This document shows positions 735-42,801 of a DNA stretch of 64,000 bases, piece after piece (the first letter of the stretch is position 1; every line of letters begins with the position of its first letter). The DNA is from an uncultured Lachnospiraceae bacterium. Its GTDB lineage: Bacteria > Bacillota > Clostridia > Lachnospirales > Lachnospiraceae. A program made the position numbers and the translations under genes. The DNA lies in contig CATKXR010000017.1 of NCBI GenBank assembly GCA_949840805.1, positions 1 to 64,000 on the forward strand. Reading direction: 5' to 3'. Under the pieces are notes generated by a model that was not told the origin of the DNA, did not search any database, and worked only from the letters and a program-made list of their open reading frames with translations.

Positions 735-985
735 TATTCGTTCACCTCCAGTAAGATTGTACTAATGGAAGGGGAAAAGCGGAATGAACTATTATTTCAG
801 TATTTACATGAACAATTTATCTTTGATTTTATCCGGTGACAACAGCATATACATAGCAAATAGAGCGTGGGAGGAACAGGGATGGGTTTATTTGACATTA
901 TGAGGGAGACTTGATTATTTTCCAGAAAAGGCATATAGTAAGGTTAGCTGTTTCTAACCAAAATATGAGGAGGATGGGATCCTTT
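735..985. other. Intergenic region between XRE and AraC genes
   Basis: No convincing gene lies here. The right half holds the promoter and palindrome listed at 911-959. A 10-codon ORF (MGLFDIMRET) with a good GGAGG site begins near 882, but it is too short to call. The 13-mer AAATAGAGCGTGG at 858-870 recurs at 9558-9570. Confidence 0.5.
911..959 (+). promoter_or_regulatory. Promoter and DtxR-type operator for the cassette 1 AraC gene
   Basis: TTGATT (911-916), a 17-base spacer and TATAGT (934-939) form a good sigma-A promoter. The palindrome GGTTAG-CTGTTT-CTAACC (942-959) starts two bases after the -10 and would cover the transcription start, so a bound repressor would block initiation. It belongs to the 11-member operator set of this window. 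Confidence 0.75.
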
Positions 986-1951
986 ATGACGAATCAATAT
1001 ATGAATATGCTGTATCATGATCTGCTTTCCAATTCGCCGCAGACTGTAACAATAGATATTCCGGCAGATATGGGAACAGGCCAGATCTCGCAGATTGTTA
1101 CAAAGCAGGGGGCGGTTGTTTCAGACTGGCGGATGAATTACTTTTCCGATGTGAACGTACAGGGAGTGAACAGTGAAGAGTATATCCAGCTTTTATTCTG
1201 CCTGAATGATGGTGTTACATGGAATATTGCAGGAGACCGGCAGAGCGCCAGCATACAAAAAGGGGAATCCTGTATTTACAGAGGCCATGGAAAAACAGAA
1301 TATCTGTGCTATTCGGGGAAAAGTGATTTCCTTTTCAAAAATGTTAAAATACCGGTTTCCTATTTTCATAAGATCCTGAATGATTATTTTGAAAATAGTG
1401 AGATGGATGCGTATGAAAAGAAATTGTTGACCGGGATATCCAAGATCAGCATTACACCATATATGGAACATATCTTTGCAGAGCTGAAGGATTTTGCAAA
1501 ATATCGTGGCGGCCTGGGTTATCTTTTTCTTGAGAGCAAGATTTTTGAACTCCTGTCCGTATATTTAAGTGAAGTTTTAGAGTTAAGGATTCTCGCTTCG
1601 AATTATCTTAGTATTTCAAAAAGTGACCGGGATGCGATCCTTGAGGCAAAAAGAATGATTGACAGTCAGCTTGCATTTGCTCCGGGCTGTGAAGAACTGG
1701 CGAGAAAGGTTAATATCAGTACCTCAAAACTGACAAAAGGCTTTTCCTCCATGTTTGGAATGTCGGTTCATGCGTATGTCATAGATCAGCGGCTGGAAAA
1801 GGCGGCAGGGCTGCTTTTGGAAAGCAACCTGAATGTAAGCCAGGTCGCCACATTGGTAGGGTATTCCAAACCGAGTAACTTTGCAGCTGCGTTTAAAAAG
1901 AAATATGGAGTGATCCCCAAAAACTATAAAGCAGAAAATATGATTGGATAA
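986..1951 (+). CDS. AraC-family transcriptional regulator, cassette 1
   Basis: The 321-residue protein ends in a double helix-turn-helix AraC/XylS domain, residues about 225-318. Its second helix-turn-helix (NVSQVATLVGYSKPSNFAAA) and the FKKKYGVIPKNY signature are clear. The N-terminal about 220 residues form a divergent sensing domain. The start at 986 follows a GAGGAGGA site at 967-974. Upstream in-frame GTG/TTG/ATG codons would put the operator palindrome inside the gene and are less likely. The gene lies directly before the cassette 1 ECF genes. Iron-siderophore AraC regulators such as YbtA, which activate ABC importer genes when ligand is bound, are the natural comparison, but the ligand here is unknown. 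Confidence 0.85.
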   Translation: MTNQYMNMLYHDLLSNSPQTVTIDIPADMGTGQISQIVTKQGAVVSDWRMNYFSDVNVQGVNSEEYIQLLFCLNDGVTWNIAGDRQSASIQKGESCIYRGHGKTEYLCYSGKSDFLFKNVKIPVSYFHKILNDYFENSEMDAYEKKLLTGISKISITPYMEHIFAELKDFAKYRGGLGYLFLESKIFELLSVYLSEVLELRILASNYLSISKSDRDAILEAKRMIDSQLAFAPGCEELARKVNISTSKLTKGFSSMFGMSVHAYVIDQRLEKAAGLLLESNLNVSQVATLVGYSKPSNFAAAFKKKYGVIPKNYKAENMIG

Positions 1952-2040
1952 GGGAGGCTGCTCTGCTTGTAGCTATAAAAAATACTGATTTTGGGTAGAA
2001 TGAAATTGATTTTGGGTTGGATTTGTGAATCGGAATTGAT

Positions 2041-2086
2041 AAAATGTGTGTCGTGGTTAGAGATTGCTAACCTCAACACACATTTT
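2041..2086. promoter_or_regulatory. Extended palindrome with DtxR-type operator before ECF S gene
   Basis: The core GGTTAG-AGATTG-CTAACC (2055-2072) is flanked by AAAATGTGTG (2041-2050) and its exact inverse CACACATTTT (2077-2086). The whole 46-base region is therefore a near-perfect inverted repeat. It lies 18 bases upstream of the cassette 1 S-component start. It could be a repressor site, an RNA hairpin in the leader, or both. Confidence 0.75.
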
Positions 2087-2104: not shown

Positions 2105-2710
2105 ATGAACAAAAAGTTAAATGCAAAAGACTTTATCCTGATCGGCGTTCTGACTGCCCTCATGTGGATCATCTGCATGATTATCAGCACGGTAATGAGT
2201 ATCGCCGGCCCTGTCACCAACGTATTCTATCCTGCCGTTACTGCAGTCCCGAATGGAATTGTAATGATGCTGTTGCTGGCAAAAGTACCAAAAAGAGGTA
2301 CGTTTACTATCTGCGGTACAATTCAGGGCATCCTGTTTCTGCTGGTCGGCGGATTCTGGCTGATCCCGGTTGCTCTGATCATCGGCGGTGTGATCTGTGA
2401 CTTTCTGATTATGGGAAGAAGCGAAGTCACTATGAGATCCATGATGATCGCCTATACGATTTTCAGCGGTATTTTCGCTTTCGGTGCGATTGTCGGCCCC
2501 ATGAGCTTTCTGCGGAACGCTTTTGTAGGCGCAATGGAGAAAAACAATATTGCGCAGGAATACATAGATGGCATGATCACAATAACATCCGGATTTATGC
2601 CGGTTGTCATTGTAGCTGCCGGATTGTTTGGCGGTCTGCTTGGGGGCTATATCGGACAGAAAACATTGAAGAAACATTTTATCAAGGCAGGGCTTGTATC
2701 AGCAAAATAA
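2105..2710 (+). CDS. ECF transporter substrate-binding (S) component, cassette 1
   Basis: This 201-residue, almost wholly hydrophobic membrane protein has about five to six membrane segments. It has the short charged N-terminus (NKKLNAKDFILIGVLTALM) and C-terminal LKKHFIKAGL typical of the MptD/Trep_Strep group of ECF S components. The S component binds the substrate and docks on the T/A motor. The start at 2105 follows AGGAGGAAC. Its stop overlaps the T-component start at 2710. Substrate is not predictable from sequence; the metal-type operator and the linked YbtPQ-like pair point to a metal chelate or haem-like compound. Confidence 0.85.
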   Translation: MNKKLNAKDFILIGVLTALMWIICMIISTVMSIAGPVTNVFYPAVTAVPNGIVMMLLLAKVPKRGTFTICGTIQGILFLLVGGFWLIPVALIIGGVICDFLIMGRSEVTMRSMMIAYTIFSGIFAFGAIVGPMSFLRNAFVGAMEKNNIAQEYIDGMITITSGFMPVVIVAAGLFGGLLGGYIGQKTLKKHFIKAGLVSAK

Positions 2711-3483
2711 TGATGGAAGAAAATATAAAGCAACTTATCACACAAAGACAATTTAAAAGGACAGCGGCATTAGACCCACGCTGTAAAGTGGCTCTGCTGA
2801 TCCTGATTGGCTGCGTCAGCTATTTCCTGAATGGAGAAGCAGCAAGTCTGATACTGGTGGTCACATTAGCATTCTTCACAGCTATTGGGAACGGCGCAAA
2901 ATGGGCGGCAAAAATGCTGGTGTTTTATATGATTGTAGCCTACCTCAATGCCCTGCTGCGCTATGTTTCCATTCCAGTGTTAAGCGTGATCATGAGTGTA
3001 TTCGGTGTGACCATTTTGAAATTGGTTCCTATTGCTATGATGGGCATATGGACTTTGCGCACGACACACATGGATGACCTTATGGTGTCATTACAGCGCC
3101 TGCGGCTCCCGCAGTCTGTCACGATTCCATTGGTAGTCATGTTCCGATACATACCTACTTTGAGGATCGAGTACCGCATGATCCGAAACACAATGGATAT
3201 CCGGGGGATCAGCGATACCCTCTGGAAACGGCTCTTTCATCCGGTTGCCACGGTTGAATATATTCTGATACCGCTGTTAATGCGCTGTCTGAAAGTGACG
3301 GATGAACTGGCGGCGTCCGGTACGACACGTGGACTGGAATTAGAGGAAAAAAGATATGCCCTGAACCATGTCCGCTTTTCGTGGCCGGAATATGCCGTAA
3401 CAATTTCAGGAATTGTCTTTTTGGCAGCTCTTTTGTTCCTCGACTATACCTCTATCGGGGAAATCATTATATGGAGGGTATAG
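2710..3483 (+). CDS. ECF transporter transmembrane (T) component, cassette 1
   Basis: The 257-residue product is an EcfT-type scaffold membrane protein. It has an N-terminal LDPRCKVALLILIG segment and about five membrane helices. It carries the two coupling Ala-Arg-Gly-like regions near RNTMDIRGIS and ASGTTRGLELEEK, which contact the ATPases. Its start overlaps the S stop by one base, giving translational coupling, and the A gene follows after two bases. This order (S-T-A) recurs in cassettes 2 and 3. Confidence 0.88.
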   Translation: MMEENIKQLITQRQFKRTAALDPRCKVALLILIGCVSYFLNGEAASLILVVTLAFFTAIGNGAKWAAKMLVFYMIVAYLNALLRYVSIPVLSVIMSVFGVTILKLVPIAMMGIWTLRTTHMDDLMVSLQRLRLPQSVTIPLVVMFRYIPTLRIEYRMIRNTMDIRGISDTLWKRLFHPVATVEYILIPLLMRCLKVTDELAASGTTRGLELEEKRYALNHVRFSWPEYAVTISGIVFLAALLFLDYTSIGEIIIWRV

Positions 3484-3485
3484 CG

Positions 3486-4952
3486 ATGATAACATTTGAA
3501 AATTTTTCTTTCCGCTATGAGGAAAGAAATGAGTTTACATTGAAAGATATTAACCTGACCGTCCAAACGGGAGAACTTATTTTACTGACAGGGCGGAGCG
3601 GCTGCGGAAAAACAACACTGATCCGCTCATTGAATGGGTTGATTCCACATTTCTATCCCGGAGAAATAAAGGGAAGTGTTTCACTGGACAGACAATCTTT
3701 GCTGGAATTGAAACCGTCTGAACTGGCCGGTAAGGTGGGAACTGTTTTTCAAGACCCACGCTCTCAGTTTTTTATGACAGACACTACACGGGAACTTGCC
3801 TTTGGTTGTGAAAATATGGGATTCTTCCGTGAAAAGACCATTGACCGTATCGCAAGATCAGTGACGGATTTAATGCTGTCAGATTATCTGAACCGCAGTA
3901 TTTTTGATCTGTCCAGTGGGGAGAAACAGCAGATAGCGATTGGATCGGTCTATGCGCTCCTGCCAAAAGTATATATCTTTGACGAACCTTCGGCAAATCT
4001 GGACTATGACGCCACAAAGCGGCTGGCAGAGATTATGAAGCGTTTGAAGCAGGAGGGCTATACAGTCCTTGTCGTGGAGCATCGCTTTTACTATTTAAGG
4101 GAATTGATCGACCGGGCATTTCTCATTCAGGATGGCAGAATTGCACAGGAATTTACACGGGAACAATTCTGTGAGCTGCCGGATGAAAGACGCATCCCTT
4201 ACGGGCTGCGGACAGTTTGGCCGGAGCGGGACGCAAAAGAATGCAGGGCAAAATCAAACGCCCATGCGTCCGGTAATGTCCTGGAGGTAAAGGACCTTTC
4301 CTTCGCCTATAAAAAGGAACCGGATATTTTGCGGAATATTAGCTTTGAAGCGTATGAGGGGGATGTGATTGGAATTTTAGGCCATAACGGTGCCGGAAAG
4401 ACCACATTGCTCTCGATCATGACAGGGCTGTTGAAAGAAAAAAGCGGAGCCATCTGTTATAACGGAAAAAAACTGTCTCCACGCCAGAGAAGGCATTTAT
4501 CCTATCTGGTCATGCAGGATACGGATTACCAGCTCTTTGCCAGCAGCGTGGAAGAAGAACTGTCATTAGGCATCAAAGACGATTGTACCGAAAAGGTTAC
4601 GGAGACTTTAGAGGCGCTGGAACTTAGCGCATATCGGGAATGTCATCCGGCCTCCCTTTCAGGAGGGCAGAAACAGCGGGTGACCATTGGCGCAGCTATT
4701 GTAAAGAACAGCCCGGTAATATTTTTTGACGAACCGACCAGCGGCCTTGACTACGATTCCATGGTGCGCGTCAGCCGCCTGATCGAGCAGCTTGCCAGTG
4801 CCGGAATCATCATTTTTGTAGTATCGCATGATTTTGAATTTATTACCCGAACTTGTTCGGAGGTGCTGCAGCTTGACGGTCAGGATTCCATAAAAAACGA
4901 AATCCTGACGCCGGAAATCCTGTTGGCGCTTTCAAAACAATATTTTGCATGA
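3486..4952 (+). CDS. ECF transporter double ATPase (A component), cassette 1
   Basis: The 488-residue cytoplasmic protein has two complete ABC ATPase domains. Domain 1 has Walker A GRSGCGKTT, Q-loop VFQDPRSQFF, signature LSSGEKQQ and Walker B VYIFDEPSANLD. Domain 2 has Walker A GHNGAGKTT, signature LSGGQKQR and Walker B VIFFDEPTSGLD. A fused A1-A2 is usual for dedicated ECF systems. The start at 3486 (MITFENFSF) has GGAGGG at 3474-3479; upstream in-frame codons overlap the T gene. It energises uptake by the S and T proteins encoded just upstream. Confidence 0.9.
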   Translation: MITFENFSFRYEERNEFTLKDINLTVQTGELILLTGRSGCGKTTLIRSLNGLIPHFYPGEIKGSVSLDRQSLLELKPSELAGKVGTVFQDPRSQFFMTDTTRELAFGCENMGFFREKTIDRIARSVTDLMLSDYLNRSIFDLSSGEKQQIAIGSVYALLPKVYIFDEPSANLDYDATKRLAEIMKRLKQEGYTVLVVEHRFYYLRELIDRAFLIQDGRIAQEFTREQFCELPDERRIPYGLRTVWPERDAKECRAKSNAHASGNVLEVKDLSFAYKKEPDILRNISFEAYEGDVIGILGHNGAGKTTLLSIMTGLLKEKSGAICYNGKKLSPRQRRHLSYLVMQDTDYQLFASSVEEELSLGIKDDCTEKVTETLEALELSAYRECHPASLSGGQKQRVTIGAAIVKNSPVIFFDEPTSGLDYDSMVRVSRLIEQLASAGIIIFVVSHDFEFITRTCSEVLQLDGQDSIKNEILTPEILLALSKQYFA

Positions 4953-5086: not shown

Positions 5087-6871
5087 ATGTTCAAGAAAGT
5101 ATTTGAGTATGCGGGGCCGCACAAAAAGGACTTATACAGCGCAACTTTTATTGTACTGCTTAGTGTCCTTATGGGGGTACTGCCTTTTGTGCTGGCCTAT
5201 CAGGTGATTTCTCCGCTTATCATGAGGGAAACCGCGGGGAGCGGGTATGTGTCCCTGCGTGTAATCGGCGTTTTGATCTGCCTTATTTTGCAGGCTGTTC
5301 TTTACGGATGGGGGCTGAATGTTTCCCATAAGGCAGCATACAATACCCTGCTCAGGCTGCGGACTGCCTTACAGAAACGCTTTGAATCCCTTCCGCTCGG
5401 ATTTATCCAGGACAAGGGAACAGGCACGATCAAAAAGCTGTTTGTGGATGATGTGGACAGTCTGGAAGTATTGCTGGCACATTCCCTGCCGGAAGGGATC
5501 GCCAACCTTATGATTCCGCTGGCGATTTATATTGCCATGTTCTTTATTGACTGGAAGCTGGCTCTGCTGTCACTTGCGTCAATCCCTGTCAGCTTTGCGG
5601 CCATGATGATCATGTATTCTGTCGGCATGAAAAAAATGGGGCCGTATTATATGGCCGGACAGAAAATGAACAATACCATTATCGAGTATATCAACGGCAT
5701 GGAGGTCGTAAAGGTATTCAACAAAGATGCTGAATCTTATGAGCGTTTCCGCAGGGACATTTCCAATTATCGGGATTGCACGCTTGGCTGGTATAAAGCG
5801 TCATGGCCCTGGATGGCGGTTTACAGCAGCCTGCTCCCCTGCACGGTTATCCTTACCCTGCCTTTGGGCGCGTGGTTTGTACTTTCCGGTTATTCCACTC
5901 TGCCGAATCTGATTCTCATTCTCTGTCTGTCGCTTAGTATCGGTATTCCACTGTTAAAATCATTGGGATTCCTGCCGACTATGCCGCAGCTCAACTATAA
6001 AATTTCTGCTTTGGAGCAGGTATTGGAGACTGCGCCCCTAAAACAGACAGAAGATACTTTTCATGGGAAGAGCCTTGATATTTGTTTCGACCATATCACT
6101 TTTGGATATGAGAAAGCCCAGCCGGGGCCGGATGGGAAACCAGTGGTGACAATGGATGAAGTAATCACAGATGTCAGCTTTACTGTAAAAGCCGGACAGA
6201 AAACGGCTTTGGTCGGTGAATCCGGTTCTGGAAAAAGTACACTGGCAAAGCTATTGATCCATTACTATGACCCGCAGAAGGGAAGTATTTCTATCGGAGG
6301 GCAGAAATTAACTGAAATGAGCCTGGAGGCGCTGAATGATCTGATTTCTTATGTAGCACAGGATCAGTATTTGTTTAATACCTCTCTGCTTGAAAATATA
6401 CGGATGGGGAGACCGGGCGCAACGGACGAGGAAGTCCTTCAGGCGGCAGAAAAGGCACAATGTATGGAATTCCTTGAAAAATTACCGCAGGGAATCCGAT
6501 CAATGGCAGGCGATGCCGGTAAGATGCTTTCCGGCGGCCAGCGCCAGCGCATATCCCTGGCCCGTGCAATCCTGAAAAATGCCCCCATCATCGTCCTTGA
6601 TGAAGCGACCGCATATGCCGATCCGGAGAATGAGGAAAAAATGGAGGCGGCGATTGCGGAACTGGTAAAGGGAAAGACATTATTTGTGATCGCTCATAAA
6701 CTTCCTGCCATTATGAACGCCGACCAGATTTGCGTCATAGAACATGGAAAGCTGGCTGCAACCGGTACTCATCAGGAACTGCTTAAGACCTGTGGGGAAT
6801 ACCAGAAATTATGGAGGGCAGCACAGGTCAGCGCTGAATGGAAAGTAAACACCATAAAGGAGGGGAAGTAA
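5087..6871 (+). CDS. ABC transporter, fused membrane-ATPase, P-type subunit, cassette 1
   Basis: The 594-residue protein has an exporter-fold membrane domain (six helices, residues about 1-310) followed by an ATPase domain. The ATPase has Walker A GESGSGKST, signature LSGGQRQR, Walker B IIVLDEATAYADPENE and H-loop VIAHK. The D-loop is AYADPENE instead of the usual SALD form, as in the partners at 13712, 29085 and 39284. This marks it as the P member of a heterodimer with the next gene. Exporter-fold pairs of this sort (YbtP/YbtQ, IrtA/IrtB) import ferric siderophores, so direction of transport cannot be assumed from the fold. A 14-residue linker sits between the A-loop region and Walker A. 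Confidence 0.88.
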   Translation: MFKKVFEYAGPHKKDLYSATFIVLLSVLMGVLPFVLAYQVISPLIMRETAGSGYVSLRVIGVLICLILQAVLYGWGLNVSHKAAYNTLLRLRTALQKRFESLPLGFIQDKGTGTIKKLFVDDVDSLEVLLAHSLPEGIANLMIPLAIYIAMFFIDWKLALLSLASIPVSFAAMMIMYSVGMKKMGPYYMAGQKMNNTIIEYINGMEVVKVFNKDAESYERFRRDISNYRDCTLGWYKASWPWMAVYSSLLPCTVILTLPLGAWFVLSGYSTLPNLILILCLSLSIGIPLLKSLGFLPTMPQLNYKISALEQVLETAPLKQTEDTFHGKSLDICFDHITFGYEKAQPGPDGKPVVTMDEVITDVSFTVKAGQKTALVGESGSGKSTLAKLLIHYYDPQKGSISIGGQKLTEMSLEALNDLISYVAQDQYLFNTSLLENIRMGRPGATDEEVLQAAEKAQCMEFLEKLPQGIRSMAGDAGKMLSGGQRQRISLARAILKNAPIIVLDEATAYADPENEEKMEAAIAELVKGKTLFVIAHKLPAIMNADQICVIEHGKLAATGTHQELLKTCGEYQKLWRAAQVSAEWKVNTIKEGK

Positions 6872-8647
6872 ATGCTTGCATTGTTTTCAAGAATTTTAAA
6901 ACTCTCCGGCAAATATAAAGGCCGGATCCAGGGGGCGTTTGTATGTGCTTTTATGGAATCCATACTTGCAAAAATGCCTGTCTTTCTGGCATTTCTTGTA
7001 CTCTCTGGATTCTATCAGAAAACTTTAACCGGAGCGGACTGCCTGCATATCGGGCTTGGACTTGTCGGTGTAGTGATTGCACAGGCTGTCGTCCATTATC
7101 TCTGCGACAGGCTGCAAAGCGCTGCCGGATATATGATCTTTACGGATAAGCGAATGGAGCTTGGGGGACATCTTCGCAGGTTGCCCATGGGATATTTTAC
7201 TTCCGGCAATATAGGGAAGATCAGTTCGGTACTCAGCACAGATATGATATTCATTGAGGAAGTTGCCATGAGTACCCTCGGAAATATGATGAGCTATATG
7301 CTCTCTGCCCTTATCCTGCTGGTATTTATGTTCTTTCTGGACTGGCGGCTTGGTCTGATTGCCGCAATCGTGACGCTGCTTGCATCGTTTGTCGCAAAGG
7401 GTATGAACAGGGTTTCCCTGAAAGAAGCTGCCGGGCGGCAGGAACAAAGCGAGCATTTGACGGACGCTGTTCTTTCTTTTGCCGAGGGAATCGGCGTAAT
7501 CAAAAGCTATAACCTGATTGGTGAAAAATCAGAAGAACTGACCGATAATTTCAGACGTTCCAGAGATACGTCAACCGAGTTTGAACAAAAAATGACACCC
7601 TGGACAAGAGGGCTGAACATCTTGTATGCTTTTGGGATCGCCGGCATTTTTGCGCTCTCTGTCTGGCTTGAACAAAGCGGCTCCCTCTCTTTGCCTTATC
7701 TGCTTGGCGTGCTGCTTTTTGTCTTTGATCTGTTCGGGCCATTAAAGGCATTATATGGCGAGGCTTCCCGCCTTACTGTTATGAACGCAGCTTTAGACCG
7801 GATTGAAGAAGTCCTGAATGAAACGGAATTGCCGGATAAGGGTACACAGCATATTTCTAAAACCAATCCTGATTGCCTGGAGGTTTGTTTTGACCATGTG
7901 GCTTTTGCTTACGAAGGTGGAGCAGCGGGAGGTCTGGGCGGTCAGGACAAAGAAGTGCTGCATAATATCAATTTTTCCATGAGGAAAAATACAATGACTG
8001 CCCTTGTGGGACCATCTGGCGGTGGAAAATCTACGATTGCGAACTTGTTGGCCCGTTTATGGGATGTGAAGTCCGGTAAGGTCATGATCCATGGTACGGA
8101 TATTCGGAACGTCCCGCTTTCTGAATTGATGAACCAGATCAGCATGGTTTTCCAGCGTGTGTATTTGTTCCAGGACACGATCTATAACAATATCAGTATG
8201 GGAAAACCGGACGCTACCGAGCAGGAAGTTTATGAGGCAGCTAAGAAAGCTCGCTGTTACGATTTTATTATGGCATTGCCGGAAGGGTTTCAGACCATGA
8301 TCGGCGAGGGCGGAGCTACTCTGTCCGGTGGGGAAAAGCAGCGTATTTCTATTGCCCGCTGTATATTAAAGGATGCGCCGATTGTAATATTGGACGAAGC
8401 GACAGCCAGTGTTGATACGGATAATGAGAGTTATATTCAGGAGGCGATCAGTGAGCTGGTGAAGGGTAAGACTCTGCTTGTGATCGCGCACCGCCTGAAT
8501 ACCATTCGGGAGGCCGACCAGATCCTGGTGATCTCGGATGGGCGTATCAGTGAACAGGGTACACATGATGAGCTTATGGCTAAAGCCGGAATCTATCAGG
8601 ATTTTGTGAATATCCGTAAAAGATCATCTGGCTGGAGCCTTACATAA
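6872..8647 (+). CDS. ABC transporter, fused membrane-ATPase, Q-type subunit, cassette 1
   Basis: The 591-residue partner of the preceding gene starts directly after its stop, behind AGGAGGGG. It has a six-helix membrane domain, then an ATPase with Walker A GPSGGGKST, signature LSGGEKQR, Walker B IVILDEATASVDTDNE and H-loop VIAHR. The canonical D-loop contrasts with the P subunit. The stretch after the A-loop tyrosine (YEGGAAGGLGGQDKE) is longer than normal and is weakly similar to the in-frame repeat described for cassettes 2 and 3. Confidence 0.88.
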   Translation: MLALFSRILKLSGKYKGRIQGAFVCAFMESILAKMPVFLAFLVLSGFYQKTLTGADCLHIGLGLVGVVIAQAVVHYLCDRLQSAAGYMIFTDKRMELGGHLRRLPMGYFTSGNIGKISSVLSTDMIFIEEVAMSTLGNMMSYMLSALILLVFMFFLDWRLGLIAAIVTLLASFVAKGMNRVSLKEAAGRQEQSEHLTDAVLSFAEGIGVIKSYNLIGEKSEELTDNFRRSRDTSTEFEQKMTPWTRGLNILYAFGIAGIFALSVWLEQSGSLSLPYLLGVLLFVFDLFGPLKALYGEASRLTVMNAALDRIEEVLNETELPDKGTQHISKTNPDCLEVCFDHVAFAYEGGAAGGLGGQDKEVLHNINFSMRKNTMTALVGPSGGGKSTIANLLARLWDVKSGKVMIHGTDIRNVPLSELMNQISMVFQRVYLFQDTIYNNISMGKPDATEQEVYEAAKKARCYDFIMALPEGFQTMIGEGGATLSGGEKQRISIARCILKDAPIVILDEATASVDTDNESYIQEAISELVKGKTLLVIAHRLNTIREADQILVISDGRISEQGTHDELMAKAGIYQDFVNIRKRSSGWSLT

Positions 8648-8658: not shown

Positions 8659-9060
8659 ATGAAGATCCATGCGTCGGGCGAGGATTATTTGGAGGCGATA
8701 TTGATACTGCAAAAGCAGATGGGAGAAAGTGTGGTGCGATCGATTGACCTTGCCCGGCACATGGGATTCAGTAAGCCGAGCATCAGCCATGCGGTAGGTG
8801 TTCTGCGGGATGGCGGGTTTCTTGAAATGGATAAAGACGGCTCTCTCCATTTGACAGATAAGGGCAGAGAAGTAGCAGAGAAAATATATGATCGTCATCG
8901 CTTTTTTACAGAACAACTTATTGCGGTTGGTGTGGACGAAGTAACTGCAGAGCAGGATGCCTGTCGGATTGAACACGCGATCAGTGATGAAGCCTTTCAG
9001 AAATTAAAGAATGCAATAATATCGGGAGGAAAACAGTATGGTAAACATCCTGGTGGTTGA
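8659..9060 (+). CDS. DtxR-family metal-dependent regulator, copy 1
   Basis: The 133-residue protein contains the winged helix (recognition helix near SKPSISHAVGVLRDGG) and the dimerisation/metal domain. It lacks the C-terminal SH3/FeoA-like domain of full-length DtxR. The sequence QDACRIEHAISDE gives Cys102, Glu105 and His106, which match the primary metal ligands of DtxR in both order and numbering; H80 may be an ancillary ligand. Position 9 is Asp, as in MntR, rather than the DtxR Met10. Iron is therefore the likelier cofactor, but manganese cannot be excluded. Its last 23 bases overlap the next gene. It is the leading candidate to bind the GGTTAG-N6-CTAACC sites. A near-identical copy lies at 18891. 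Confidence 0.88.
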   Translation: MKIHASGEDYLEAILILQKQMGESVVRSIDLARHMGFSKPSISHAVGVLRDGGFLEMDKDGSLHLTDKGREVAEKIYDRHRFFTEQLIAVGVDEVTAEQDACRIEHAISDEAFQKLKNAIISGGKQYGKHPGG

Positions 9061-9478
9061 ATGGGATAAAGGAAACGAGAGTGACTGGAAAGAGATCCTT
9101 GCTTTTCTGTCAGGAAAAATGCACTGTCAGGTGTCAAGGATGCCGTTATTGGTTCCTTCTGATGAAAAGAGCAGGGATGTGTTGTCGTTTCCTGGCCTGG
9201 AGATCCGGTTAAAGGAGCAGATCGCTCTCAGGGATGGGGAGCCGGTCCATCTGAGTCATTATGAATTTTTTACACTCTGTTATCTGGCGCAGCATCCTGG
9301 CTGGGTATATACGAAAAAGCAGATATACGAGGCCGTATGGAAGCAGCCGGGAGAGAACTGTGAAGCATCAGTGAGCAGTGTGATCAGCCAGCTCAGAAAA
9401 AAGCTGGATCCGGCAAATTCCGGGAATGGGTATATCAGGACAGTTATAAACAGCGGCTATAAATTTGAGGGGGCTTAA
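9038..9478 (+). CDS. Receiver-less OmpR-type winged-helix protein, copy 1
   Basis: The 146-residue protein begins MVNILVVEWDK, which looks like the first strand of a response-regulator receiver. There is then no room for the receiver fold and no phospho-acceptor Asp pattern. Residues about 60-145 are a complete OmpR/PhoB DNA-binding domain (LSHYEFFTLCYLAQHPGW, SSVISQLRKKLD, IRTVINSGYKF). Overlap with the DtxR gene and its duplication at 19273 suggest the two act together. Its target and signal are unknown. Confidence 0.8.
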   Translation: MVNILVVEWDKGNESDWKEILAFLSGKMHCQVSRMPLLVPSDEKSRDVLSFPGLEIRLKEQIALRDGEPVHLSHYEFFTLCYLAQHPGWVYTKKQIYEAVWKQPGENCEASVSSVISQLRKKLDPANSGNGYIRTVINSGYKFEGA

Positions 9479-33254: not shown

Positions 33255-33842
33255 ATGGGGGAGTTAGAGCGCCAGGATCAGTTTATGAAAGCAGGGGAAA
33301 ATTACCAGAGGACCAAAATGCAGGAAGAGATGATCTTCCGGAAGCTGAAGGATATGGGCTGCCGTGTGACAAAACAAAGGCGGATCCTTTTAAATGTGAT
33401 CTTACAGGAGGAATGCGCCAGCTGTAAGGAGATTTATTATAAAGCCAGAAAAGAAGATCCTAAGATCGGTGCCGCTACGGTATATCGGATGATCAATCTA
33501 TTAGAAGAGATTGGAGCCATCAGCAGAAATAACATGTATACCATCCCTGAAGCTGCTTTGTCCGGATCGGGATGGGGGAAATGTCCGGTCGGGGGAGCTG
33601 TCTGTGTGGGGCAGGGGAAGAAGATTGCCTGTGTGATTGAATTGGATGACCATACATCCTGCTGTCTTTCTGCTGAGGAATGCTGTCTGGTTATGACAAA
33701 AGGACTCAAAGCCTGCGGTTATATCCAATGCCAGAATGTTAAAAACATTTTGCTGCCTGCCAGCCTGGAAATGAAAGAACAGGAGAAAACAGGTACTGTA
33801 ATTGAGAGAATTTCTCAACAGGGAAAAAGCGATGGAAAGTAA
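33255..33842 (+). CDS. Fur-family-like regulator with Cys-rich C-terminus
   Basis: Residues about 28-95 of this 195-residue protein are a Fur-type winged helix (CRVTKQRRILLNVILQ ... IGAATVYRMINLLEEIGAI). The C-terminal half is unlike normal Fur: the HHH metal cluster and paired CxxC are missing. It carries about nine Cys (GKCPVGGAVC, TSCC, EECC, ACGYIQC). It probably senses metal or redox state by a different set of ligands. The first ATG (33255) has only a weak site, so the start could be further in. It heads the operon of the P-type ATPase and is likely its regulator. Confidence 0.75.
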   Translation: MGELERQDQFMKAGENYQRTKMQEEMIFRKLKDMGCRVTKQRRILLNVILQEECASCKEIYYKARKEDPKIGAATVYRMINLLEEIGAISRNNMYTIPEAALSGSGWGKCPVGGAVCVGQGKKIACVIELDDHTSCCLSAEECCLVMTKGLKACGYIQCQNVKNILLPASLEMKEQEKTGTVIERISQQGKSDGK

Positions 33843-33885
33843 GTATCCCATACATTATAATGAACATCACATAAGGAGGTGTCGC

Positions 33886-33966
33886 ATGAAAAACCACAGA
33901 TTCTGGGCGTGGGCTGCCGTGATCTGCATGATCATGACATTCTACACCGGCTACAAACACAAATAA
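33886..33966 (+). CDS. 26-residue membrane micro-protein
   Basis: A perfect AAGGAGGTG precedes ATG 33886. The product (MKNHRFWAWAAVICMIMTFY then TGYKHK) is a single hydrophobic helix with basic ends. It looks like the small conserved proteins (I believe the DUF6219 group) that accompany metal P-type ATPases in Clostridia. It may be an accessory subunit of the pump encoded downstream. Confidence 0.7.
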   Translation: MKNHRFWAWAAVICMIMTFYTGYKHK

Positions 33967-33987
33967 GAGAAGGAGGAACTGCTTACT

Positions 33988-34299
33988 ATGATGGACATGT
34001 TCTGTAAATTGGATGGAAAGAAGACGGGGATTTTTGCGGCCGGGGTTCTGTTCGGGACAGCCGGTATCAAAATATTATCCAGTAAAGACGCGAAAAAGGT
34101 ATATGTCTCCTGCACTGCCGCTGTGCTCAGAGCAAAAGAATGCATCATGAGGACGGTCAGCGTTATCCAGGAAAACGCGGAGGATATCTATGAGGAAGCT
34201 CTGGAAGTGAATGAGAAAAGGGCGGCAGAGGAAACGGAATTTGAAGATGAAAGCGAAGCCCGTGATGATTTTCAGGAAACACCGGTTCCGGAAGTATGA
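33988..34299 (+). CDS. DUF6110-like membrane-anchored protein
   Basis: The 103-residue protein has one N-terminal hydrophobic segment (GIFAAGVLFGTAGIKILS), then a helix and an acidic tail rich in Glu and Asp. The pattern GVLFGTAGIKILSSKDAKK is what I recall for DUF6110 proteins, found next to heavy-metal ATPases. Its stop overlaps the ATPase start (ATGA), so the two are co-translated. The acidic tail could bind divalent metal. Confidence 0.75.
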   Translation: MMDMFCKLDGKKTGIFAAGVLFGTAGIKILSSKDAKKVYVSCTAAVLRAKECIMRTVSVIQENAEDIYEEALEVNEKRAAEETEFEDESEARDDFQETPVPEV

Positions 34300-36377
34300 A
34301 GTTCCGGATATTACATGAGATAAAAGGACGGCTGCGGATCCATATTTCCTGCTCCCGGATGTCCTGCCGGGATGCGGATATTCTTCAGTACAGCCTGCTT
34401 TGCCAGCCTTCCATTACTATGGTAAAGGTCTATGAGCGGAGTCAGGATGCAGTCATCTGCTATACAGGCGAGAGGGGAGACATGATAAAGTTTCTCCAGA
34501 AGTTTTCCGGTAAAAAAATTTCGGTGCCGGAGCACATATGGCAGAATTCCGGACGCAGAGTAAATCGTTACTATCAGGATAAACTGATCTGGAAGATCAT
34601 GCTGCGCACAGCCGGGAAGTTATTCCTTCCCATGCCAGTCCGGTGTACGGCTGTCTGTTGCCGGTCGGCCAGATTTATTTGGAAAGGCGTACATACTCTG
34701 TGCCAGGGGCAGCTGGGAGTTTCTGTCCTGGATGGAACCGCGATCACGGTATCCCTTTTGCGCCGGGATGTAAAGACGGCAGGTTCCATCATGTTCCTTC
34801 TTGGGATCGGGGAACTATTGGAGGAGTGGACCCATAAGAAATCTGTGGACGATCTGGCGAGAAGTATGTCATTGAATACAGGCAGGGTGTGGAAGCTTAC
34901 GGATGGAAGAGAGAGTTTGGTGGATGCCGGGCAGATCAGAGAGGGAGACCAGGTGATGATCCGCATGGGAAATGTGATCCCCTTTGACGGAGTGGTCGTG
35001 GAAGGAAGCGGAGCTGTGAATCAGTCTTCCATGACAGGAGAAGCCCTGCCTGTGGCAAGGGAAAAAGGCGGGTATGTGTACGCGGGGACCGTACTGGAGG
35101 AAGGGCAGCTTGCGATCTGTGTCAGGGAGACTTCCGGTTCCAACAAATACGAGAAGATCGTTCACATGATCGAGGAATCGGAAAAGCTGAAGTCAAAGGC
35201 AGAGGGGAGGGCGGCCAGACTGGCTGACCGGCTGGTACCCTATACGCTCCTTGGCACGGCGCTTGTCTATCTTCTGACAGGGAACGCCACAAAAGCATTG
35301 TCTGTTCTGATGGTGGATTTTTCCTGCGCTTTAAAGCTGGCCATGCCGGTCTCTGTCCTGTCAGCGATCCGGGAAGCGGGAACCCATCGGATCACCGTAA
35401 AGGGAGGGACATTTCTGGAGAAAGTCTCAGAGGCTGATACGATCATCTTTGATAAGACCGGAACGCTGACCAGGGCCAGGCCAACGGTGGCGGATGTGGT
35501 GCCTTTTACGGATGAGGATCCGGACGAACTGCTTCGCATTGCGGCATGCCTGGAGGAGCATTTTCCTCATTCCATGGCAAGGGCGGTGGTCCATGCTGCC
35601 AGTGAAAAGGGGCTTACCCATGAGGAGACCCATTCCAGGGTGGAATATATTGTGGCACATGGGATCTCTTCCATGATTGATGGGAAAAAGGTGGTGATCG
35701 GAAGTTACCATTTCGTCTTTGAAGATGAGGGCTGTACCATACCGGAGGGACTTGGGGAACGGTTTGAAGGTCTTCCGGAAGGATATTCCCATCTGTATCT
35801 GGCCATAGAAGGACTGCTGGCGGCGGTGATCTGTATTGAGGATCCCCTGCGGGAAGAGGCCGCTGCAGTGGTAGCGGCGTTAAGAAGGCACGGCTTTGAT
35901 AAGATCGTGATGATGACCGGGGACAGTGAGAGGATCGCCGGTTCGATTGCTTCAAAAGTAGGCGTAGATGAATATTATTCGGAAGTGTTGCCGGAAGAAA
36001 AGGCAGACTTTGTGAAGAGAGAACGGGCAGCAGGTAGAAAAGTGATCATGGTAGGAGACGGGATCAATGATTCCCCGGCCCTTTCCGCGGCAGATGTGGG
36101 GATCGCTATCAGTGACGGGGCACAGATTGCCAGAGAGATCGCTGATATCACCATCGAGGCGGACAATCTGTCAGGGCTTTTGACTCTTCGCGCCATCGGC
36201 TGTGGGCTTCTTGAAAGGATACGGAAAAACTATATCCGGATCGTTGGGATCAATTCCGGTCTGATCCTCCTTGGGATCACCGGAAGGATACAGCCCACCT
36301 CGTCTGCTATGGCTCATAATGTTTCCACTTTGATGATCGGATTGAACAGTATGAGAAACCTGGTGGATGAAACATAA
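34296..36377 (+). CDS. P1B-type heavy-metal-translocating ATPase with atypical metal motif
   Basis: The 693-residue protein has the actuator motif MTGEALPV, phosphorylation site DKTGTLT (D386), an HP motif (CLEEHFPHSMA) and hinge GDGINDSP near residue 588. The transmembrane metal motif at residues 342-350 is FSCALKLAMP where copper pumps have CPCALGLATP. One Cys (344) is kept and Lys347 replaces Gly. The N-terminal 70 residues resemble an HMA fold but lack CxxC. The metal is therefore not predictable as Cu or Zn. Iron or manganese efflux would fit the operator and the Fur-like first gene. Confidence 0.85.
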   Translation: MKFRILHEIKGRLRIHISCSRMSCRDADILQYSLLCQPSITMVKVYERSQDAVICYTGERGDMIKFLQKFSGKKISVPEHIWQNSGRRVNRYYQDKLIWKIMLRTAGKLFLPMPVRCTAVCCRSARFIWKGVHTLCQGQLGVSVLDGTAITVSLLRRDVKTAGSIMFLLGIGELLEEWTHKKSVDDLARSMSLNTGRVWKLTDGRESLVDAGQIREGDQVMIRMGNVIPFDGVVVEGSGAVNQSSMTGEALPVAREKGGYVYAGTVLEEGQLAICVRETSGSNKYEKIVHMIEESEKLKSKAEGRAARLADRLVPYTLLGTALVYLLTGNATKALSVLMVDFSCALKLAMPVSVLSAIREAGTHRITVKGGTFLEKVSEADTIIFDKTGTLTRARPTVADVVPFTDEDPDELLRIAACLEEHFPHSMARAVVHAASEKGLTHEETHSRVEYIVAHGISSMIDGKKVVIGSYHFVFEDEGCTIPEGLGERFEGLPEGYSHLYLAIEGLLAAVICIEDPLREEAAAVVAALRRHGFDKIVMMTGDSERIAGSIASKVGVDEYYSEVLPEEKADFVKRERAAGRKVIMVGDGINDSPALSAADVGIAISDGAQIAREIADITIEADNLSGLLTLRAIGCGLLERIRKNYIRIVGINSGLILLGITGRIQPTSSAMAHNVSTLMIGLNSMRNLVDET

Positions 36378-39246: not shown

Positions 39247-39264
39247 GGTTAGTGGAAGCTAACC
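39247..39264. promoter_or_regulatory. DtxR-type operator of the fourth ABC pair
   Basis: A perfect GGTTAG-TGGAAG-CTAACC palindrome, directly followed by AGGAGGAAC and the start at 39284. Confidence 0.8.
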
Positions 39265-39283: not shown

Positions 39284-41026
39284 ATGCAACAACAAAATCC
39301 ACTGCTCCGTATCTGGGGCTGGGGAAAAGACGAACATGGCGGCCTGATCTTCGCGATCGTAAGCGCGTTGATCGGAGTTGCGCTGGGGATGCTGCCGTAT
39401 TTTGCGGCGGCGCAGATCATCATCGGGATGCTTTCCGGAGAAAGGTCGCTGTCCCTGTATCTGCCCTGGTTGGGGCTGGGACTGGCGGGATATGCCGCAC
39501 GTACCCTTCTTTACAACATGGCTCTGTCAGCATCCCATAAGGCGACTTTTTCCATTCTGAAGGCCATTCGGCAGAGGATATTGAAGAAGCTGCCAAAACT
39601 CCCTCTTGGGACTGTTATGGATATGCAGAGCGGAAAGATGAAGCAGATCATCGTGGACCAGGTGGACGGCATGGAGACAACACTGGCGCACCTGTTTCCA
39701 GAGATGACTGCCAATGTGGCGGCTCCGGTGCTGATCATTATTTATCTGTTTGTGCTGGACTGGCGTATGGCGCTTTTATCCATTGTGACGATCCCGGTGG
39801 GGATGGCGTTTATGATGTCGGTGATGGGAAATTACAGCAAAGACTACGAAGGAGCGGTGAAGACCACACAGGAGATGAACAGTACCGTTGTGGAATACAT
39901 AAACGGCATTGAGGTCATCAAAGCCTTTAACCAGGGAAAGTCTTCCTATGCGAAGTTTACGAAGCGGGTAAAGGCCAATGCGTCTTACTATTACAACTGG
40001 ATGAAAAAAAGCCAGTTTGGGACGGCCTCCGGATATGCGGTGGTACCTGCCACGTTGATCACGATCCTCCCGGCTGGATGGATGTGGTACACAGGCGGCA
40101 GCCTGCCGATGGAAACTTTTATCACGGTGATCATCTTATCTCTTGGGATCGCGGGGCCTCTTCTTGCAGCCATGAACTTCGTGGATACGCTGGCCATTGT
40201 CGGCACCACAGTGGCGTCCGTGGATGAACTTCTTTCTGCAGAAGAACAGCAGCATGGTGAAAAAGAAGTCCGGATCAAAAGCACGGATATGGAACTGTCC
40301 CATGTTTCCTTCGGGTATCATGCGGATCAGAACATCCTGCGGGATGTGAGCCTTTTCATCCCGGCAGGGAGCCTGACGGCGTTGGTGGGGCCTTCTGGTT
40401 CCGGCAAGTCTACCATCGCAAAGCTGATTGCGGGATTCTGGGATGTGAAGGAGGGAACGGTGTCCATGGGCGGACTGGATGAAAAGAAAATCCCGTTAAA
40501 GCAGCTCTATGACAAGGTAGCCTTTGTTTCTCAGGATAATTATTTATTTGACGAGAGCGTCCGGGAGAATATCCGTATGGGGAAGCTGTCCGCCACAGAC
40601 AAAGAAGTGGAAGCAGCGGCAAAAGCCGCAGGCTGTGATGCCTTTATCCGTTCTCTGGAAAAAGGGTATGAAACGAACGTAGGAGGCGGAGGCGCACATC
40701 TTTCCGGTGGAGAACGGCAGAGGATCGCCATCGCAAGAGCCATGCTGAAAGACGCGCCCATCGTCATACTGGACGAGGCCACTGCCTATATCGATCCGGA
40801 AAATGAGGCAGTCATCCAGAAAGCCATCGCAAAGCTGGTGCAGGGGAAAACGGTGATCGTGATCGCCCACAGACTATCCACCATCAAAGATGCAGACCAG
40901 ATCGTGGTGGTAAAGGACGGTAAGATAGAAGCAGCCGGAAGACATGAGGAATTAAGAAAGGGCTGCCTGCTGTATGAATCCATGTGGCAGGCACATATCG
41001 GGGCAAAGGACGGTGATGCAGCATGA
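39284..41026 (+). CDS. ABC transporter, fused membrane-ATPase, P-type subunit, fourth pair
   Basis: The 580-residue protein has a six-helix membrane domain and an ATPase with Walker A GPSGSGKST, signature LSGGERQR, Walker B IVILDEATAYIDPENE and H-loop VIAHR. It shows the P-type D-loop (AYIDPENE) shared by the first gene of every pair here. No inserted repeats are present. Unlike cassettes 1-3 there are no ECF genes beside it, so the pair can presumably work alone. Confidence 0.88.
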   Translation: MQQQNPLLRIWGWGKDEHGGLIFAIVSALIGVALGMLPYFAAAQIIIGMLSGERSLSLYLPWLGLGLAGYAARTLLYNMALSASHKATFSILKAIRQRILKKLPKLPLGTVMDMQSGKMKQIIVDQVDGMETTLAHLFPEMTANVAAPVLIIIYLFVLDWRMALLSIVTIPVGMAFMMSVMGNYSKDYEGAVKTTQEMNSTVVEYINGIEVIKAFNQGKSSYAKFTKRVKANASYYYNWMKKSQFGTASGYAVVPATLITILPAGWMWYTGGSLPMETFITVIILSLGIAGPLLAAMNFVDTLAIVGTTVASVDELLSAEEQQHGEKEVRIKSTDMELSHVSFGYHADQNILRDVSLFIPAGSLTALVGPSGSGKSTIAKLIAGFWDVKEGTVSMGGLDEKKIPLKQLYDKVAFVSQDNYLFDESVRENIRMGKLSATDKEVEAAAKAAGCDAFIRSLEKGYETNVGGGGAHLSGGERQRIAIARAMLKDAPIVILDEATAYIDPENEAVIQKAIAKLVQGKTVIVIAHRLSTIKDADQIVVVKDGKIEAAGRHEELRKGCLLYESMWQAHIGAKDGDAA

Positions 41027-42765
41027 TAGAAGCATTCAGAAAAATATGGAGATTTGCCGGTACAGAGAGGGCGAATATCAATAAATCCGTAGCAGTAAAA
41101 TTTTTAAACGCGGTCTTCCATATGCTGGAGGTCAGTGCCATTTATTTTGTGATCGTGGCTCTGACGCAGGGAGAGACCGGAAGCAGAACGGCATGGATCA
41201 CATTGGTGTTTATGGCGGTCAGTATCATCGGCAATGCGGTGACTACGGCTTTTTCCAAAAATCAGCAGACCCATGCCGGCTATTTCATGGCGGCAAATGA
41301 GAGGATCAAGATTGGAAATCTCCTGAAAGGAGTGCCCATGGGATTCTTCAATGAAAACAGTCTCGGCGAAGTGACCGGCGTGTGTACCACCGTGCTTGGG
41401 AACATTGAGACGCTGGTCCCCATGGTGCTGGTGGATATCCTGGGCGGAGTGATCGGCACGGTGGTATTTACGGCGATGATCCTTATTTTTGAATGGCGTG
41501 TGGGCCTGGTCGCATTGGCGGGTATCCTCCTGTATTTTCTGGTAGTTTCCTCCATGGAGAAAAAGTCTGCCGCCATCGCACCAAACGCACAGAAGTCTCA
41601 GACGGCTCTTACATCCGCAGTCCTGGAATATGTGCAGGGAATGGGCATCGTGAAATCCTTCAATCTAAGCGGCAGGGGAGATAAGAGGGCGCAGGATGCT
41701 CTGGAATTCAATCGGAAGAGCAATCTTGCCATGGAAAAGCTCATGACCCCTTATACGATCTTTCAGGAGCTGGTACTGCAGATGGCAGGGATCACCATGA
41801 TGTTTGTAGCGATCCTCTGCTGGGCAGATGGGGCCATGTCCCTGGCAAATGCCCTCATGTGCATTGTCATGTCTTTCCTTGTATTCGGTCAGGTCAAACT
41901 GTTCGGTATGGGGATGTCCATGCTGCGGCTGGCTTCGGCAAGTATTGACCGTACTCTGCAGACAGAAGAGATGGAACAGATGGACGAAAAAGGCAGGGCG
42001 CTGCGTCCGGGGGATCACGGGATCGCATTTGACAACGTGCATTTCTCCTATGAAAAGAAAGAGATCCTCCATGGGATCAGTGTGAAGATCCCGGATAAGA
42101 CGACCACGGCGGTCATCGGCCCCTCTGGTTCCGGCAAGACCACGCTCTGCAGCCTGATCGCCCGTTTCTGGGATGTGGACAGCGGCAGCATAAAGATTGG
42201 CGGAAAGGATGTGCGGGAATACACGCTGGAGTCCCTGATGGAGCAGATCAGCATGGTGTTCCAGAATGTCTATCTCTTTGCCGATACAATCGAGAACAAC
42301 ATCAAGTTCGGCAGGCCCCAGGCGACTCACGGGGAGGTGGTGGAAGCGGCCAGGAAAGCCTGCTGTGCGGACTTTATCGAGGCGCTCCCGGATGGGTATG
42401 ACACGGTGATTGGGGAAGGCGGCGCATCCCTGTCCGGAGGGGAAAAGCAGCGTATTTCCATCGCAAGGGCCATGCTGAAAGACGCTCCCATCGTGATCCT
42501 TGACGAGGCCACCGCCAATGTAGACCCGGAGAACGAGGATCGGCTGCAGAAGGCCATCGAGGAACTGACCAGGAACAAGACTATCATTATGATCGCCCAC
42601 AGGCTGAAGACTGTCAGGAACGCAGACCAGATCCTTGTGGTGGATGAGGGACGGATCGTCCAGCAGGGCAGACACGAAGAACTGATCGGTCAGAAGGGGA
42701 TCTATAAGGACTTTGTTCTTGGACGTAAGGAAGCGATCGGGTGGAAGCTGAATGCACAAACCTGA
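41023..42765 (+). CDS. ABC transporter, fused membrane-ATPase, Q-type subunit, fourth pair
   Basis: The 580-residue protein overlaps the previous stop by four bases (ATGA). Its ATPase has Walker A GPSGSGKTT, signature LSGGEKQR, Walker B IVILDEATANVDPENE and H-loop MIAHR. The loop after the A-loop (YEKKEILHG) is the short ancestral form, useful as a reference against the repeat-bearing paralogue at 30952. Confidence 0.88.
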   Translation: MIEAFRKIWRFAGTERANINKSVAVKFLNAVFHMLEVSAIYFVIVALTQGETGSRTAWITLVFMAVSIIGNAVTTAFSKNQQTHAGYFMAANERIKIGNLLKGVPMGFFNENSLGEVTGVCTTVLGNIETLVPMVLVDILGGVIGTVVFTAMILIFEWRVGLVALAGILLYFLVVSSMEKKSAAIAPNAQKSQTALTSAVLEYVQGMGIVKSFNLSGRGDKRAQDALEFNRKSNLAMEKLMTPYTIFQELVLQMAGITMMFVAILCWADGAMSLANALMCIVMSFLVFGQVKLFGMGMSMLRLASASIDRTLQTEEMEQMDEKGRALRPGDHGIAFDNVHFSYEKKEILHGISVKIPDKTTTAVIGPSGSGKTTLCSLIARFWDVDSGSIKIGGKDVREYTLESLMEQISMVFQNVYLFADTIENNIKFGRPQATHGEVVEAARKACCADFIEALPDGYDTVIGEGGASLSGGEKQRISIARAMLKDAPIVILDEATANVDPENEDRLQKAIEELTRNKTIIMIAHRLKTVRNADQILVVDEGRIVQQGRHEELIGQKGIYKDFVLGRKEAIGWKLNAQT

Positions 42766-42783
42766 CCATTCTTTCTGTATTTG

Positions 42784-42801
42784 GGTTAGCATAAGCTAAT
42801 C
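42784..42801. promoter_or_regulatory. DtxR-type operator before the lipoprotein gene
   Basis: GGTTAG-CATAAG-CTAATC, one base from perfect, 57 bases upstream of the lipoprotein start. Confidence 0.7.

Follow-up and report, generated by a model that had tools for sequence, protein, structure and literature searches.

The 64,000-nucleotide stretch of DNA analysed here (the window; positions 1 to 64,000 of contig CATKXR010000017.1, assembly GCA_949840805.1, from an uncultured Lachnospiraceae bacterium) carries a 42-kb island of metal-uptake genes, along which 11 copies of one palindrome, GGTTAG-N6-CTAACC or a close variant, are distributed. A Pfam search of 40 island open reading frames (ORFs) identified three energy-coupling factor (ECF) transporter modules, composed of a Trep_Strep-type S component, a CbiQ-type T component and a double ATPase, together with ATP-binding cassette (ABC) permease-ATPase pairs, two MATE transporters, an HMA protein, a ZIP transporter, a DUF6110 protein and an E1-E2 ATPase. 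The regulators of the island comprise three AraC-type, one TetR, one Fur-like, two winged-helix and three DtxR-family proteins. The gene context described for the palindromes in an earlier analysis of the letters alone (hereafter the sequence-only reading), including the three DtxR-family genes, was confirmed by Pfam, with the addition that the first site, at 942, precedes an AraC-type regulator. The palindrome is very probably the operator of a short DtxR subfamily (about 120–135 aa) that lacks the SH3-like domain and would act from a single site at promoters, the island being one arm of a regulon that includes feoB.

The start coordinates of all 11 palindromes given in the sequence-only reading, from 942 to 42784, were recovered exactly (Table 1). 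Compared with dinucleotide shuffles of the window, GGTTAG-N6-CTAACC was found eight times at up to one mismatch (0.09 expected) and 10 times at up to two (1.28 expected), while the exact core TTAG-N6-CTAA occurred nine times, always within 944–42799, against an expectation of 0.67. Because the counts exceed those of the shuffles at up to one mismatch and at the exact core, eight to nine of the window sites are individually convincing, whereas 17403 and 19877 are weak when taken alone. A scan at up to three mismatches was rejected as evidence of enrichment, since its 17 matches against 14.9 expected are not significant, and the case for site 19877 therefore comes from its unbroken core, its good promoter and the second site at a distance of 47 bp. 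The weakest site, 17403, may be a decayed copy, because it has one mismatch in each arm and its surroundings align with those of 28936; the alignable segments, 17200–17520 and 28700–29100, each contain an operator-like site and probably reflect an old duplication. The distance from site to start codon is 16–131 bp across all 11 sites when start codons are picked by their Shine–Dalgarno match; at 942, 2055, 19924 and 28936 the start of the longest ORF lies before or near the site, and starts with better Shine–Dalgarno sequences are found downstream.

The operator consensus is an 18-bp palindrome, RGTTAG[C/T/A]-N4-[G/A/T]CTAACY, with four nearly free central bases. Logos built from the 11 window sites, from 87 cores in loci of the genus and from 52 cores in named loci around relatives of the DtxR protein encoded at 8659 agree with one another, and nothing strong is seen in the flanks of any of the three. 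A second dimer site offset by five bases, as in TTAGGTTAGSCTAACCTAA, is absent, there being no information at +/-5 in the three site sets, and the window contains no match to the 19-bp DtxR/IdeR box TTAGGNTAGNCTANCCTAA. The earlier description of the palindrome as half of a DtxR box is correct in its spacing and incomplete in its letters, since the base right after TTAG is almost never G (0/22 window arms, 6/174 genus-locus arms and 3/104 named-locus arms). The sequence-only reading had also placed several sites 2–9 bases after a -10 box, which holds at 942 (2), 2055 (9), 10654 (9), 19877 (7) and 33177 (7), although the promoter at 10654 scores only between the 90% and the 95% background levels. 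Of the 46 sites of relatives with a gene no more than 200 bp away, 25 are accompanied by a promoter above the 95% background level, and in 16 of these 25 the -10 box starts 11–20 bp upstream of the site. According to a review (PMC10317159), the IdeR boxes of repressed genes overlap the transcription start or the -10 box and so block polymerase, and this shared geometry supports repression here.

The whole assembly (5.0 Mb; completeness 90, contamination 6.35) was scanned for the motif. All four exact sites and all eight sites with up to one mismatch lie in the window, as do all five matches to RGTTAG-N6-CTAACY, but at two mismatches the 28 sites in the assembly are outnumbered by the 108 found with the backward control. 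A second loose pattern gave 10 sites against 38. Raw genome counts at loose stringency were rejected as evidence, the backward control being commoner, and the weight outside the window therefore falls on gene context rather than on numbers. Five core places outside the window were examined, covering three of the 18 two-mismatch sites located there. Three of the five cores precede genes whose families Pfam confirmed: feoB on contig C41 begins about 130 bp after its core, a ZIP gene on contig C8 less than 20 bp after and a DUF3793 gene on contig C13 about 140 bp after. A fourth DtxR paralogue is encoded on contig C46. The proposal that operator and regulator form a private pair limited to the island, which the sequence-only reading had favoured as a local regulator-site pair, would fit the presence of all eight near-perfect sites of the assembly in the window, but it is contradicted by the intact off-island cores before feoB, ZIP and DUF3793, by the fourth DtxR gene on another contig and by the recurrence of the operator across Clostridia described below, and is highly improbable. 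The island thus appears to be an enlarged accessory branch of a regulon to which feoB, among other genes, also belongs.

In 51 named loci around relatives of the 8659 protein (828 kb), TTAG-N6-CTAA occurs 56 times, against 0–9 occurrences at each of the 20 other spacings from N0 to N20, and GTTAG-N6-CTAAC occurs 40 times against 0–2. Under a wider pattern, 33 of the 51 loci contain a site. Some of these loci are near-duplicates (such as L132-L134 and L136/L137), and the 56 cores are therefore not 56 independent events. The pattern RGTTAG-N6-CTAACY was found in 20 of 24 genomes of the window's genus, with 68 sites compared with 24 backward-control matches, and 574 sites against 61 were counted in 150 genomes of the family. 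When genus and family are combined (172 genomes), sites are present in 148/168 genomes with a DtxR hit and in 0/4 without (Fisher p 0.0003, uncorrected for ancestry). At class level (195 genomes), sites were observed in 89/107 genomes with a strong DtxR hit (289 sites against 53 in the backward control), in 12/46 with a weak hit (21 against 31) and in 7/42 with none (21 against 22, 11 of the 21 coming from one genome); the difference between genomes with a strong hit and the rest (Fisher p 1e-18) is likewise uncorrected for ancestry and depends on a strong/weak cut, 1e-23, that was chosen after the table was seen. The query was the 8659 protein for genus genomes and the C46 protein for family and class genomes, and genome G039 is counted in both of the latter sets.

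The sites are also found close to dtxR genes. Twelve of 63 genus sites lie within 10 kb of a dtxR gene, where 0.57 would be expected, and at class level 28/75 sites, in 15/23 genomes, lie within 1 kb, a count that covers only the listed sites and listed dtxR genes (75 of the 331 sites outside the window's genome). None of the 63 genus sites is positioned deep within a gene, compared with 10 of the 16 control sites fetched (24 control sites were found), with genes around both sets called by a simple script. The table of neighbouring genes holds 71 rows for the 63 sites, three sites having no row, and its entries for 'downstream gene', like the strands in the promoter scan, perhaps do not reflect the real transcript at 16 small RNA (sRNA) promoters discussed below. 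From 49 nearest genes within 350 bp, 47 encoded proteins were scanned, two repeat proteins of L049 being omitted for their length; among the 25 of 52 families listed, ABC permease-ATPase was found nine times, FUR seven, FeoA four, FeoB and DUF3793 three times each, and FecCD and NifH-like once each. Many of the named loci, those of Blautia wexlerae (L129) and Butyribacter intestini (L124) among them, repeat the layout site - ECF - ABC - ABC (- MATE) - dtxR, often with an AraC gene preceded by a second site, while in five loci (four titled Ruminococcus and one Oscillospiraceae) two sites lie 34 bp apart between dtxR and a divergent feoA-feoB. Pfam confirms FeoA in three of these five loci and FeoB in one, the remainder being named by inspection. 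The distance between paired operators is 34 bp in L151, L155, L156, L157 and L159, mostly 25–27 bp in the genus loci and 47 bp in the window; such recurring distances suggest that binding may be cooperative. The spacing, the co-occurrence with DtxR, the proximity to dtxR and the target genes together lend strong support to the earlier proposal of a DtxR-type metal operator at the spacing of a single dimer.

The three window DtxR proteins and the C46 paralogue all contain the Fe_dep_repress and Fe_dep_repr_C domains above the Pfam cut-offs, and the C-terminal SH3-like domain is absent, the window proteins (124–134 aa) ending shortly after the dimerisation domain. In all four paralogues the primary metal site keeps Cys102, Glu105 and His106, while Met10 is replaced by Asp in the island proteins and by Asn in the C46 protein. 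Across 81 aligned relatives, these four included, position 102 is Cys in 78 and position 13 is Glu in 77, whereas position 10 is Asp in 47, Asn in 21 and Met in 13. The recognition helix reads SKPS[VI]S in 66/81 relatives, which resembles the SGPTVS of DtxR, and SRPTVS in the 22883 protein. The 8659, 18891 and C46 proteins probably do most of the binding, with the 22883 protein a less certain candidate. The gene order, in which dtxR 8659 and 18891 follow the last transporter gene of runs headed by sites and 22883 lies downstream of 19877/19924, suggests that every island dtxR gene is probably controlled by an operator to which its own product may bind. The system shares with DtxR and IdeR of Actinobacteria its family domains, the TTAG/CTAA arms, the N6 spacing of one dimer, the placement of the operator over -10/+1 and iron targets; it differs, as these are described in PMC10317159, from their two overlapping dimer sites (TTAGGTTAGSCTAACCTAA) and SH3-like domain in having one dimer site and no SH3, and also in avoiding G as the inner base and in the replacement of Met10 by Asp or Asn in the paralogues of this genome.

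The closest experimental precedent is EqbA of Streptococcus equi ICESe2, whose 36-bp operator contains GTTAG-ATGTAT-CTAAC and is bound in a metal-responsive manner (PMC3672683). Like the proteins considered here, EqbA is a short DtxR-like protein without SH3 that has Cys at the Fe-linked position; the core of its operator, GTTAG-N6-CTAAC, is exact in 6/11 window sites, and the C46 paralogue also shares its Asn at the position of Met10. EqbA controls the equibactin (eqb) siderophore locus, which includes YbtPQ-like ABC transporters. Its operator is described as a unique extended 36-bp palindrome, whereas the operator reported here has unconserved flanks, is present in 11 copies and extends across Clostridia; in addition, Pfam detected no nonribosomal peptide synthetase (NRPS) domain in the 40 ORFs of the island that were searched, and the likeness to EqbA is to its description, not to its sequence. 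The passages of PMC2628430 on Treponema TroR give no matching operator letters.

Ferrous iron is the likely effector, because of Cys102 and of targets that include feoA, feoB, FecCD and NifH-like genes. The Cys ligand at position 102 has been tied to an Fe2+ response, in contrast to the Glu of MntR (PMC3672683). It is rather unlikely that the corepressor in vivo is instead Mn2+ or Zn2+ and that the genes form a manganese or zinc regulon. Such a reading would draw on the sites of ZIP transporters in the island and on contig C8, on Asp10 in 47/81 and Glu13 in 77/81 relatives, both as in E. coli MntR, and on EqbA, which in vitro responds to Fe2+ and Zn2+ and incompletely to Mn2+, and which, for its Asn at the position of Met10, has been likened to the Mn-responsive TroR (PMC3672683). 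The best NCBIfam matches are MntR models as well, but they fall far below the cut-offs: the 8659 protein reaches 81.2 of 153 bits with PRK11050 and 59.6 of 138 bits with PRK03902, and the 18891 and 22883 proteins also remain below the curated MntR cut-offs. Although the proteins resemble MntR in being short and, in the island paralogues, in their Asp at the position-10 ligand, they differ in Cys rather than Glu at position 102, kept in 78/81 relatives, in these low scores and in their target genes, with siderophore-type transporters accompanying feoA, feoB, FecCD and NifH-like genes.

The abundance of other regulators, namely three AraC-type, one Fur-like, two winged-helix and one TetR gene in the island, and the frequency of Fur-like genes among site neighbours (7/47), raise the question of whether the palindrome is instead the target of one of these proteins (the winged-helix ones being free and of the OmpR type), with the DtxR genes as passengers of the same metal operons. 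This appears improbable, as at class level the sites go with the DtxR subfamily and their arms are similar both to the EqbA operator and to the GGTTAG arm of DtxR/IdeR. Moreover, loci L151, L152, L153, L155, L156, L157 and L159, in which sites lie beside or near dtxR, gave no tblastn hit to the AraC, Fur-like and winged-helix proteins of the window (E 1e-10, >60 bits) within the DNA fetched, a search that distant homologues could escape and whose queries did not include TetR.

An operator pair also heads a candidate sRNA of about 120 nt, present in 16 copies in 15/23 genus relatives (L050, L054, L056, L061, L063, L065, L067, L069, L072, L080, L084, L090, L093, L096 and L097). In 14/16 copies two operators stand 25–26 bp apart around the -10 box, one between -35 and -10 and the other at the start, the downstream one being intact in 16/16 copies and the upstream one in 14/16. 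The predicted RNA consists of two hairpins, an unpaired, CUCC-containing linker ACUCAACUCCUAUG and a terminator, with a T-rich tail in most copies and the hairpin loop UCUGACCCG likewise in most. Two-sided changes are found in 8/9 consensus pairs; the consensus energy is modest (-3.2 kcal/mol), up to 4/16 sequences break some terminator pairs, and five of the 16 copies, when folded singly, gave z values of -3.8 to -6.5. As the copies were found via the operator, the link between sRNA and operator provides no independent count. No match to Rfam 15 over the gathering score was obtained in the loci scanned, which were 13 of these 15, and the overlaps with Thr_leader, mir-192 and RsaF all remained below it. 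A search with a model of the sRNA (E up to 1, default filters) detected nothing in the 51 named loci, in the window or in nine further loci of the same genome. Since the window has no model match and contains all five RGTTAG-N6-CTAACY sites, this assembly lacks any copy under a standard operator, although it may contain a degenerate one. IsrR of staphylococci, RyhB and FsrA are iron-sparing sRNAs, which the candidate resembles in its terminator, in an unpaired linker that contains CUCC and in the regulator sites of its promoter, and from which it differs in its DtxR-type operators and in the lack of an Rfam 15 match over threshold. Among the results of this analysis, the candidate sRNA seems to be the most original lead.

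The same promoters bear on whether the palindromes are mRNA hairpins rather than DNA operators. Arms of 6 bp around a 6-base loop near start codons would suit such a role, but 14/16 sRNA promoters have a site between -35 and -10, outside the transcribed region. The outer arm bases also vary independently, 18/63 genus sites having an unpairable A...C at their ends, and sites with a recognisable promoter often follow its -10 box at a similar distance. The hairpin explanation can hardly be credited.

Several observations weigh against the assignment of the palindrome to the DtxR subfamily as an iron operator. At the strict pattern, 20 of the 168 DtxR-positive genus and family genomes have no site, and genome G256 has 11 operator sites and no DtxR hit at E 0.001, an unexplained exception in which either the gene is missing from the assembly or another regulator is involved. 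The co-occurrence statistics ignore shared ancestry, and absence of DtxR may reflect incomplete assemblies. No site of the TTAG-N6-CTAA type was found within 10 kb on either side of a dtxR relative on an Eubacterium eligens plasmid (L176, identified by a tblastn search of plasmids). Within the genome of the window, two of the five off-window cores examined (C38 and C50, of the TTTAG...CTAAA type) lack a recognisable metal gene, one of the two clear feoB genes (C28) has no site, and no promoter above the 90% background level was detected at 17403, 25152, 28936, 39247 and 42784. Several genes downstream of sites, enolase and aldo/keto reductase among them, have no obvious tie to iron, and all three island paralogues share with MntR an Asp at position 10.

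Table 1. Operator sites and genes of the metal-uptake island (mismatches are to GGTTAG-N6-CTAACC; coordinates are those of the window)
Feature	Position	Strand	Remarks
Operator, exact	942..959		26 bp before AraC-type gene start 986; -10 TATAGT ends at 939
AraC-type regulator	986..1951	+	Pfam; start by Shine–Dalgarno
Operator, exact	2055..2072		32 bp before first ECF operon (start 2105)
ECF transporter 1 (Trep_Strep-type S, CbiQ-type T, double ABC ATPase)	2105..4952	+	Pfam; start by Shine–Dalgarno
Two fused permease-ATPase ABC transporters	5087..8647	+	Pfam
DtxR-family regulator 1, 133 aa, no SH3	8659..9060	+	11 bp after ABC pair; gene run headed by 2055
Free OmpR-type winged-helix protein	9038..9478	+	Pfam; overlaps DtxR 1
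Operator, 1 mismatch	10654..10671		58 bp before second ECF operon (start 10730)
Second ECF and ABC-pair gene run	10730..17342	+	Pfam
Weak operator-like site, 2 mismatches	17403..17420		87 bp before MATE gene 17508
MATE transporter	17508..18881	+	Pfam
DtxR-family regulator 2, 134 aa	18891..19295	+	93% identical to 8659; 9 bp after MATE gene
Operator, 3 mismatches, core intact	19877..19894		First of pair; 116 bp before HMA-domain gene start 20011
Operator, 2 mismatches, core intact	19924..19941		Second of pair, 47 bp from 19877
HMA-domain protein and ZIP metal transporter	20011..21055	+	Pfam; start by Shine–Dalgarno
DtxR-family regulator 3, 124 aa	22883..23257	+	41% identical to 8659; downstream of 19877/19924, short gaps
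Operator, exact	25152..25169		16 bp before third ECF operon (start 25186)
Third ECF transporter	25186..27890	+	Pfam
Operator, 1 mismatch in one core arm	28936..28953		131 bp before ABC gene start 29085
ABC transporter pair	29085..32802	+	Pfam; start by Shine–Dalgarno
Operator, 1 mismatch	33177..33194		60 bp before Fur-like gene; 7 bp after TTGACA-N18-TATACT promoter
Fur-like protein, DUF6110, E1-E2 ATPase	33255..36377	+	Fur-like protein matches only 2–64 of the 121-position FUR profile
Operator, exact	39247..39264		19 bp before ABC pair
ABC transporter pair	39284..42765	+	Pfam
Operator, 1 mismatch	42784..42801		56 bp before GLUG-domain protein start 42858

Some further features of these loci were recorded. 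Two free winged-helix proteins of the OmpR type, which lack a receiver domain, are encoded at 9038–9478 and 19273–19713, both genes overlapping the 3' ends of the near-identical dtxR genes (8659 and 18891) by 23 bp, and such a gene also directly follows dtxR in loci L142, L147 and L150. Fur-like proteins under an operator are encoded in L051 (2515–2784) and in the window (33255–33842), both matching only the first 64 of 121 FUR positions, and others of 88–125 aa, judged by eye, are found in L062, L066, L070 and L100. Elsewhere in the window, an Rfam match to pemK RNA (45470–45570, 57.6 bits) lies above the gathering score, and a tRNA cluster, Lys(ctt), Lys(ttt) and Gln(ctg), occupies 58240–58548.

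The regulation that we infer would proceed as follows. When ferrous iron is sufficient, a metal-loaded DtxR dimer would occupy a single site, where it would cover the transcription start right after the -10 box and block RNA polymerase. Under iron limitation the metal would leave DtxR and the sites would clear, allowing expression of the ECF and ABC importers, the ZIP and MATE transporters and the accessory genes. The dtxR genes located in the same gene runs would be co-expressed, which would close a negative feedback loop.

Iron control in gut Clostridia is usually framed around Fur. On balance it seems probable, if narrowly so, that across Clostridia the SH3-less DtxR subfamily, and not Fur alone, is a main iron regulator, acting through a single-dimer operator on feoAB, on ECF and ABC importers of the metallophore type and on its own genes and, in the genus of the window, on a conserved DtxR-repressed sRNA that would serve the iron-sparing response. 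The operator type is not new in itself, because the EqbA operator has a GTTAG-N6-CTAAC core; its Clostridia-wide use with a one-dimer architecture may be, since within the open PMC text no publication on this motif in Clostridia was found. The review PMC10317159 leaves open the matter of half sites in other genomes, and the operator described here would offer a natural case of one-dimer DtxR recognition. As the operator tracks the short DtxR subfamily, the iron regulon of many Clostridia genomes may be readable from sequence. The finding also points to a testable iron-regulated sRNA which, if the proposal is true, would carry out an iron-sparing response like that of RyhB, FsrA and IsrR.

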